A DNA stretch of 50,235 nt from Candidatus Binatia bacterium. GTDB taxonomy: Bacteria; Vulcanimicrobiota; Vulcanimicrobiia; Vulcanimicrobiales; Vulcanimicrobiaceae. Location: positions 1-50,235 of the forward strand of contig DATKMJ010000028.1 in the NCBI GenBank assembly GCA_035541935.1. The letters are read 5' to 3'. This document shows positions 9,908 to 12,073 of the stretch, one piece after another; within the stretch, counting starts at the first letter, position 1, and each line of letters opens with the position of its first letter. The translations under genes and the position numbers were made by a program. The notes under the pieces were generated by a model, which was given only the letters and a program-made list of their open reading frames with translations, did no database searches and had not been told where the DNA came from.

Positions 9908-11185
9908 ATGGCCGCCAAGGTCGTGATTTTTCAGCCCGGGCCGCTGCGCGGCGAGGTCGGCGTTCCCGGGGATAAGTCGATCTCCCATCGGGCGCTCATC
10001 GCCGGCGCCTGCTGCAACGAGCCGTTGCGCATCGCTCGGCTCAACCAGGGGCGCGACGTGCTTGCGACGCGCGAGGCGCTGACGGCGCTCGGCGCGCGCA
10101 TCGAAGCCGATGGCGACGGCGTCGTCGTCCACGGCGGGCGATTGCACTCGCCGCCGGGCGCCCTGGAGTGCATGAACTCGGGCTCGACGGCGAGGATGCT
10201 CCTTGGCGTCTGCGCCGGCGCGAACGTAGCCGCTCGCTTCGATGGGGACGAATCCTTGCGATCCCGTCCGATGGAGCCCGTCGCCGCACAACTGCGAGCG
10301 TTCGGAGCGAGAATCGAGACGACGGGAGGTCGGCTCCCGCTCGCGATCGCCGGCACGCCGGAGATCGAGACGCGGCGCTTCATCCTGCTTGAACCCTCCG
10401 CCCAAGTGAAGTCCGCGCTGCTCTTTGCCGGTCTCTTCGCGGGCGTGAGCGTCGACGTGACCGGCGATCGCGGCTCGCGCGACCACACGGAGCGTCTCTT
10501 GCGCTACCTCGCCGCCGAGATCGAATGGAACGGCCGCGAGATCCGTCTGGGGGAGGCGCGTCCAGCGAGCAGGCCGATCGAGGTCGCCGGCGACTTCTCC
10601 GCCGCAGCCTTCCTCATAACGGCGGCGGCGGTGACGCCGGGGAGCTCGATCGTCGTGAGGGACGTCGGAACGAATCCAACCCGGACCGGCCTGCTCGACG
10701 CACTGCTCGCCATGGGGGCCGCGGTGGAGCTTCGGCGGCCGCGGACGCTCTGCGGCGAGCCCGTGGCGGACGTCGCCGTCGAATGGCGCCCACTCCGGGG
10801 CACGACGGTATCGGAGGGCGTCGCCCTCCGGGCGGTCGACGAGATCCCGCTCATCGCGGCCGCGGGCGCCTTCGCAGCGGGAGCTACTGCGATCTCCGGC
10901 GTCGCAGGTCTGCGGGCCAAAGAGTCGGATCGGATCGCCGCCATCGAGCGGCTGACGGCCGCCGTCGGCGTCGAGGCCAGTTTCGAGCGTGGAGTCCTGA
11001 CCGTCCGCGGAGGCCGGCCCGCGCCGACCGGCGCCGCCATCGAGACGCAAGGCGACCACCGCATCGCCATGACGGCTGCGGTTCTGGCCTGCGGGGCGGG
11101 GCGGATATCGGCGGACGGCGAGGAGAGCCTCGACGTCAGTTTCCCGGGCTTTCGAGCGGCCTTGGACGGCCTGCAGCGGGGTTAG
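9908..11185 (+). CDS. aroA: 3-phosphoshikimate 1-carboxyvinyltransferase (EPSP synthase)
   Basis: A 425-residue cytoplasmic enzyme of the shikimate pathway that joins shikimate-3-phosphate and phosphoenolpyruvate to give EPSP. Diagnostic motifs are PGDKSISHRALI (Lys23 binds both substrates), NSGSTARMLLG near residue 89, LRAKESDRI near residue 338 and GDHRIAMTAAV near the end. The length is normal for the family. ATG 9908 has no good Shine-Dalgarno sequence. The last codons overlap the stop of the convergent FmdB-like gene by four bases. It sits apart from other aromatic biosynthesis genes. Confidence 0.95.
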   Translation: MAAKVVIFQPGPLRGEVGVPGDKSISHRALIAGACCNEPLRIARLNQGRDVLATREALTALGARIEADGDGVVVHGGRLHSPPGALECMNSGSTARMLLGVCAGANVAARFDGDESLRSRPMEPVAAQLRAFGARIETTGGRLPLAIAGTPEIETRRFILLEPSAQVKSALLFAGLFAGVSVDVTGDRGSRDHTERLLRYLAAEIEWNGREIRLGEARPASRPIEVAGDFSAAAFLITAAAVTPGSSIVVRDVGTNPTRTGLLDALLAMGAAVELRRPRTLCGEPVADVAVEWRPLRGTTVSEGVALRAVDEIPLIAAAGAFAAGATAISGVAGLRAKESDRIAAIERLTAAVGVEASFERGVLTVRGGRPAPTGAAIETQGDHRIAMTAAVLACGAGRISADGEESLDVSFPGFRAALDGLQRG

Positions 11186-11460
11186 GCTGCGGGCTCCGCT
11201 TTGGCGGACGGCGAGGGCTTCGGCGGCTCTTCTTTCGGCTTCTCGGCCGCGGTATCGCTCTTGACGCTCGAGCCCGATGTCGATCCCCTCGAATCGGTTA
11301 CGTAGAAGCCCGAGCCCTTGAACAGGACCGGGGCCGGATTGAAGACGCGGCGCAGGGGCGCCCCACAGGCCTCGCACGGCTCGCCGTAGGTCTCGTCGAA
11401 GCCGTGGCGCACCTCGTGGACGCGGCCGCACTTCGTGCAGGCATAGTCATAGAGCGGCAT
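11182..11460 (-). CDS. FmdB-family zinc ribbon protein
   Basis: A 92-residue protein. The first ~45 residues are the FmdB/CxxC_CxxC_SSSS domain (MPLYDYACTKCGRVHEV, EPCEACGAPLRRVF): two CxxC pairs binding one Zn, then the typical GSGFYVTDSRGS. The rest is a Lys/Glu/Pro low-complexity tail. FmdB was named as a putative regulator of formamidase genes; the biochemical role of the family is unclear. No ribosome-binding site precedes ATG 11460. Instead a consensus promoter with an overlapping CIRCE operator ends six bases upstream, so the mRNA is probably leaderless and repressed by HrcA. The 3' end overlaps aroA on the other strand by four bases. Confidence 0.88.
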   Translation of the reverse strand: MPLYDYACTKCGRVHEVRHGFDETYGEPCEACGAPLRRVFNPAPVLFKGSGFYVTDSRGSTSGSSVKSDTAAEKPKEEPPKPSPSAKAEPAA

Positions 11461-11466
11461 GGAGAG

Positions 11467-11495
11467 AGTATAGTTGTCTTAGCACTCGGGGTCAA
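11467..11495 (-). promoter_or_regulatory. Sigma-70 promoter of the FmdB-like gene
   Basis: Minus-strand -35 TTGACC (11495-11490) and -10 TATACT (11472-11467) are separated by exactly 17 bases. The -10 box ends six bases before ATG 11460, placing the expected transcription start on or beside the A of the start codon. Confidence 0.75.
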
Positions 11496-11505
11496 TGAGT
11501 GCTAG
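11479..11505. promoter_or_regulatory. CIRCE operator (HrcA binding site)
   Basis: TTAGCACTC (11479-11487), nine spacer bases, then GAGTGCTAG (11497-11505). The CIRCE consensus is TTAGCACTC-N9-GAGTGCTAA, so only the last base differs. It covers the -35 box of the FmdB-like promoter and reaches into the stop codon of the upstream SRPBCC gene. HrcA normally represses groESL and dnaK operons through this site, so heat-shock control of the FmdB-like gene is inferred. Confidence 0.85.
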
Positions 11506-12002
11506 AAGTCGGCGAGGGCCGCCCCGTCCCGCTTGAACTCGACCAGGCCTTTGAAGTGCACGAGCGAGTCGTCGAGCGCGCTCGCCACGCGCCGCCCCCG
11601 CTGCCACCGGTCCAGAATCGCGCCGACGCGTCCGTGGTACGCCGGGTAGGCCAGGCGGACGTGGAGCCGTGAGGACGTCGTGCGCCGCTCGATTCTAAAC
11701 TCGAGCCGCCGGCGAAGCGAGTATGCCCCGACGAGCGAGAGGCGGTAGTTGGAGATCAGGCCGTCGATCTCGTAAAGCTCCTCTTCCTCCCCGGGAAGCC
11801 ACGAACGCAGCGCTACCTCGCTGCCGAGCCGTAACTCTGGCTCCGCGCCGGCACGGCGCGCGCTGCGTAGGAAGGAAAGCCACACCGGCCATTTTTCGAC
11901 CGCGCAGAGCAGCGCGAACGCCTCTTCAGCGGGGCAATCGAGGTCGAGGCTGGCGGCGTGCGTTTGGAGTCCCGGTATGAATGCGTCGTCGCGAATCGCC
12001 AT
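11502..12002 (-). CDS. SRPBCC (polyketide cyclase/START-like) protein
   Basis: A 166-residue protein with the helix-grip pattern HAASLDLDCPAEEAFALLCAVEKWPVWLSFL near its start: a strand, then the P-E-AF-L-D/E-W-P-W signature of SRPBCC coenzyme-Q-binding or cyclase-like proteins. It then has alternating strands and a long C-terminal helix (FKGLVEFKR). It probably binds a hydrophobic ligand. ATG 12002 has no clear Shine-Dalgarno sequence; a longer in-frame reading starting at 12059 is unlikely. Its stop codon lies inside the CIRCE element of the next gene. The ligand is unknown. Confidence 0.65.
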   Translation of the reverse strand: MAIRDDAFIPGLQTHAASLDLDCPAEEAFALLCAVEKWPVWLSFLRSARRAGAEPELRLGSEVALRSWLPGEEEELYEIDGLISNYRLSLVGAYSLRRRLEFRIERRTTSSRLHVRLAYPAYHGRVGAILDRWQRGRRVASALDDSLVHFKGLVEFKRDGAALADF

Positions 12003-12073
12003 ATCGGAAGAATTACTTTGCGCGTCGCGCACTCGCGTCCTTCGCCTGCGTATCCACAACGAAATGTGGATCG

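Follow-up and report, generated by a model that had tools for sequence, protein, structure and literature searches.

The window, that is, the whole stretch of 50,235 nucleotides that was analysed, belongs to a genome of 2.41 Mb, 98.95% complete, from a member of the phylum Eremiobacterota, and it carries on the minus strand an fmdB/ruc-like gene (11182-11460) coding for a protein of 92 amino acids. This gene is monocistronic and converges with aroA (EPSP synthase, plus strand, 9908-11185), the ends of both genes overlapping by 4 bp. Upstream of fmdB, on the same strand, there is a gene (11502-12059) whose product only shows a weak polyketide-cyclase/SRPBCC-like match. The fmdB product matches TIGR02605 ("FmdB family zinc ribbon") with 50 bits (cut-off 31.3) and Pfam PF09723 with 44.7 bits (cut-off 34.4), and its gene is the single FmdB/TIGR02605 gene of the genome.

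The protein can be divided into an N-terminal zinc ribbon, with a FKGSGFYVTDSR motif (FKGSGFYxTDSR), and a hydrophilic, disordered tail that begins at about residue 59. The four cysteines of the ribbon (C8, C11, C29 and C32; CxxC-N17-CxxC near the N-terminus) are invariant across 33 sequences. Structure prediction gives a pLDDT of about 88 for the ribbon and of 45-56 for the tail, which comprises about 34 residues without secondary-structure elements. Four cysteines with this spacing and a hydrophilic unstructured tail, whose length within the class ranges from 7 to 61 residues, are the marks of Ruc-class proteins. The window protein is 45% identical over 58 residues to a homologue of Mycobacterium chelonae, whose gene also has a CIRCE element. 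A search of the PDB with the FmdB alignment yielded zinc-finger cross-matches and no informative structure.

A palindrome, TAGCACTC-N9-GAGTGCTA, is located at 11479-11505 and agrees with the CIRCE consensus at 17 of 18 positions (one mismatch). It is the only match of the window at up to three mismatches, none being found in 100 shuffled windows (0 expected). Read on the minus strand, the region is CTAGCACTC-ATTGACCCC-GAGTGCTAA-GACAAC-TATACT-CTCTCC-ATG. The -35 box TTGACC (11490-11495, minus strand) lies in the middle of the nine-base CIRCE spacer and is separated by 17 nt from the -10 box TATACT (11467-11472, minus strand). Both boxes together match 10 of 12 consensus positions and constitute the sole promoter-like site between 11100 and 11700, where 0.1 were expected. 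The sequence-only reading had described a CIRCE element one base off consensus, covering the -35 box of a 17-base-spaced promoter that reads into an FmdB-like gene, and each of these points is borne out. The TAG stop codon of the upstream gene falls within the left arm of the palindrome.

Only 6 nt separate the end of the -10 box from the ATG. Transcription is therefore predicted to start at about 11460, at the start codon or immediately beside it, and a ribosome-binding site would not fit between the -10 box and the ATG. To judge from the position of the promoter, the fmdB mRNA is probably leaderless or nearly so. The palindrome itself is very probably a genuine HrcA operator, to which HrcA is predicted to bind.

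HrcA and other CIRCE elements of the genome

Placing the fmdB gene in an HrcA regulon presupposes that the repressor exists in this organism. The genome does contain hrcA, in a single copy at C39 and with its own CIRCE upstream (hrcA-dnaJ), and groESL is also preceded by a CIRCE. A weaker element, with three mismatches, is found at an hsp20-lon pair (G000:C70:2141-2167, L009) and is conserved in several genera of the family, which suggests that the Lon protease is under putative HrcA control in this group; the element was also observed at L073, L153, L154, L282, L284 and L289. The gene for DnaK (HSP70) is present, and no CIRCE was found at it, the best candidate across 4.7 kb showing four mismatches.

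A further CIRCE, with one mismatch in this genome, precedes mraZ, where the cell-division cluster begins (G000:C56:21891-21917; L007, 7892-7918). Six or more members of the genus have it (also at L152, L155, L278, L279 and L280), some 75-150 bp away from mraZ. Which gene it serves is uncertain, as its spacing from the mraZ promoter is not constant; it may connect mraZ with the heat-shock repressor.

Conservation of CIRCE before fmdB

Upstream regions of fmdB were compared at 91 loci of the same family, at four in the sister family and at 12 in the next one (f3), using the pattern TAGCASTC-N9-GASTGCTA and 1820 shuffled regions as control. Within the genus the element occurs at 16 of 16 loci, 15 of them matching the pattern exactly and one with a single mismatch, and it always stands 19-20 nt from the ATG. 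Across the family it is found at 59/91 loci with up to one mismatch and at 65/91 with up to two, in 25 of 35 genera, while none of the 1820 shuffled regions had a match with two mismatches or fewer. All four loci of the sister family have it (two mismatches or fewer). Thus, conservation before orthologous genes, by which the proposal could be checked, holds in the genus, the family and the sister family, and extends to other phyla as described below. Among the features that define a CIRCE/HrcA regulon, the inverted repeat, an hrcA gene with its own CIRCE, overlap with the promoter and conservation before orthologues are found here, and HrcA binding and heat induction are predicted.

Where the element is present, its spacer nearly always contains TTGAC, followed 16-18 nt on by a TATACT-like box. 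Among the 59 family elements with up to one mismatch, TTG is present in the spacer of all and TTGA in 58. The -10 box lies no more than 12 nt from the start codon, with no Shine-Dalgarno sequence seen, at 47 of 69 loci; the other 22 show a Shine-Dalgarno-like sequence in a longer leader. The occurrence of both short and long leaders indicates that the element tracks the promoter rather than the start codon, as is expected of an operator.

The element is missing at all 12 loci of f3, and ten of the 35 family genera have no clear element. Therefore, HrcA control is not essential for fmdB. For instance, CIRCE is missing before fmdB at all 15 loci of the genera g32 (G099-G105, seven loci) and g35 (G109-G116, eight loci), which looks like lineage-specific loss or another mode of control. 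In g32 a TATACT box is still located at the start codon, and in g35 fmdB closely follows an upstream gene.

In about 85,000 species, starts of reading frames beginning with MPxYx[YF]xC were searched for a canonical CIRCE no more than about 70 nt away. This arrangement, with the element immediately in front of an FmdB start, occurs in at least 118 stretches, against approximately 0.03 expected at uniform composition. All 80 loci that were read are FmdB reading frames, and 77 show the full CxxC...CxxC arrangement in the available part. The matches listed come from about eight phyla, and the groups named by their records are Actinomycetota, Chloroflexota, Eremiobacterota, Riflebacteria, Acidobacteria, Ignavibacteriales, Myxococcales and Deltaproteobacteria. 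An hrcA gene was found in each of 12 genomes tested among those with CIRCE-fmdB. The fmdB regions of two records, Rubrivirga sp. NP52 (L199) and a Bifidobacterium breve MAG (L177), are near-identical to those of freshwater or marine actinobacteria among the same matches; these contigs are probably misbinned actinobacterial sequences.

In random samples the strict pattern was present in 3/198 Actinomycetota and 2/201 Chloroflexota genomes, the centre genomes counted in, and the reversed-pattern control gave 0. CIRCE-fmdB in its strict form is thus a minority state in the sampled members of both phyla. TTGAC within the CIRCE spacer also occurs at seven loci outside Eremiobacterota (L157, L158, L209, L211, L215, L226 and L230), mostly from Chloroflexota/Dehalococcoidia or near them, where it opens the spacer and is shifted by one base relative to its place in Eremiobacterota. 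These loci may represent a similar fusion of operator and -35 box in another phylum.

A proposed heat-shock switch for an FmdB-type protein

We consider it very probable that the fmdB gene of the window is an HrcA-repressed gene for a Ruc-type chaperone, the binding of HrcA, the induction by heat and the leaderless start being predicted from the sequence and the chaperone function being likely by homology to Ruc of Mycobacterium tuberculosis. During normal growth, HrcA would occupy 11479-11505, hiding the -35 box of fmdB and excluding RNA polymerase. In Bacillus, HrcA loses its activity under stress as GroE is titrated. Heat or the accumulation of unfolded proteins would lead to the loss of HrcA activity, and the derepressed fmdB would then be expressed, from a leaderless or nearly leaderless mRNA, together with groESL, hrcA-dnaJ and probably hsp20-lon. 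The reduced protein would be zinc-bound and inactive, whereas oxidation of its four cysteines would release the zinc and convert it into a holdase, whose disordered tail would hold unfolded proteins and hand them over to DnaK/DnaJ.

The function of the protein is the part of this proposal that admits a rather unlikely alternative, in which HrcA controls fmdB and FmdB is not a chaperone but a small zinc-ribbon regulator or adaptor needed under heat stress. Such a role would suit the name "FmdB regulatory protein" and the facts that most FmdB proteins are uncharacterised and that zinc ribbons have many functions (PMC7448276); besides, chaperone activity of an FmdB protein has been established in mycobacteria only. 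However, the cysteine positions of Ruc, the FKGSGFY motif and the disordered hydrophilic tail favour a chaperone, as do the co-regulation by HrcA and the location of FmdB genes in chaperone-gene neighbourhoods in several phyla (PMC7448276).

Another alternative concerns the identity of the repressor. At 52 of the 59 family loci with up to one mismatch, the fmdB operator carries a C-to-G change at arm position 7 (CACTC to CAGTC) in one or both arms, so that many relatives show TAGCAGTC-N9-GACTGCTA, which could be taken for the site of a different repressor resembling CIRCE. This is highly improbable and was rejected, because the operator of hrcA itself has the same change in other family genera (L049, L069, L072, L074, L075, L281, L283 and L286; the genomes include G035, G054, G057, G059 and G060). 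That fmdB and hrcA operators share the variant is best explained by a single HrcA that reads both. Moreover, the arms are canonical at fmdB in this genome and in five congeners, canonical CIRCE elements precede fmdB in other phyla, and there is one hrcA here. Least credible of all, and rejected too, is that the palindrome works at the RNA level, forming a hairpin in the transcript of the upstream gene or marking its end: it overlaps the stop codon of that gene in this genome, but no terminator-like site was found, the palindrome precedes the predicted transcription start, and in other genera the element is clear of the upstream stop yet still tied to the -35 box.

Returning to HrcA control of a Ruc-type gene, a tentative generalization, whose chances we put slightly short of even, is that fmdB/ruc is an old, overlooked and recurrent member of HrcA regulons across phyla, that FmdB proteins are generally heat-induced, redox-activated chaperones, and that in Eremiobacterota the module has turned into a compact, leaderless switch, its operator and -35 box being a single element. 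The FmdB family occurs in most bacterial phyla and yet its members are annotated as "regulatory protein" of unknown role; the sole functional study found places the family in proteostasis. The operators, an independent line of evidence from about eight phyla among the matches listed, support such a role well beyond mycobacteria. CIRCE before fmdB could serve as a simple predictor of stress-induced FmdB genes, and part of the putative heat-shock regulon of the uncultured phylum Eremiobacterota is hereby described.

Known HrcA regulons and Ruc

The ruc gene (Rv0991c) of M. tuberculosis is a direct target of repression by HrcA and is induced by heat (PMC7448276), and it also appears in the HrcA regulon of this bacterium reported elsewhere (PMC8557902). 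HrcA control of an FmdB-type gene was therefore already known. The sequence-only reading had assigned the gene to the HrcA regulon, which hrcA and the conservation of the operator support, but this kind of target is not new. Neither is the zinc ribbon as poorly understood as it had stated: Ruc is a redox-activated chaperone that binds one zinc through C8, C11, C29 and C32, its disordered tail is required for activity, and its oxidised form acts as a holdase that blocks aggregation and passes clients to DnaKJE (PMC7448276). No paper naming both HrcA and FmdB was found in our literature search, which did not extend to RegPrecise; the Ruc paper uses another name for the family, and the connection runs through Rv0991c. 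As far as this search goes, the novelties are the depth of conservation in Eremiobacterota, the leaderless form in which operator and -35 box are fused, the shared C-to-G variant and the recurrence in multiple phyla.

The window gene and ruc share the FmdB-type ribbon with C8, C11, C29 and C32 and a disordered tail; direct repression by HrcA at a site over the promoter, induction by heat and common control with GroES/GroEL are known for ruc and predicted for the window gene. The tails themselves are unrelated in sequence. While ruc is driven by SigH and heads an operon with rv0990c, the window fmdB has a housekeeping-type promoter and stands alone; in addition, its -35 box is inside the CIRCE spacer and its mRNA is probably leaderless. 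HrcA control of such a gene has been demonstrated by experiment in M. tuberculosis only.

The classical CIRCE/HrcA regulon, as described for delta-proteobacteria, comprises groESL and hrcA-grpE-dnaK-dnaJ, with TTAGCACTC-N9-GAGTGCTAA placed over the promoter (PMC545781). Both this regulon and the present genome have hrcA-dnaJ and groESL as CIRCE targets. In contrast to the classical case, dnaK is without CIRCE here, and the genome adds to the set fmdB and, with a weaker but conserved site, hsp20-lon.
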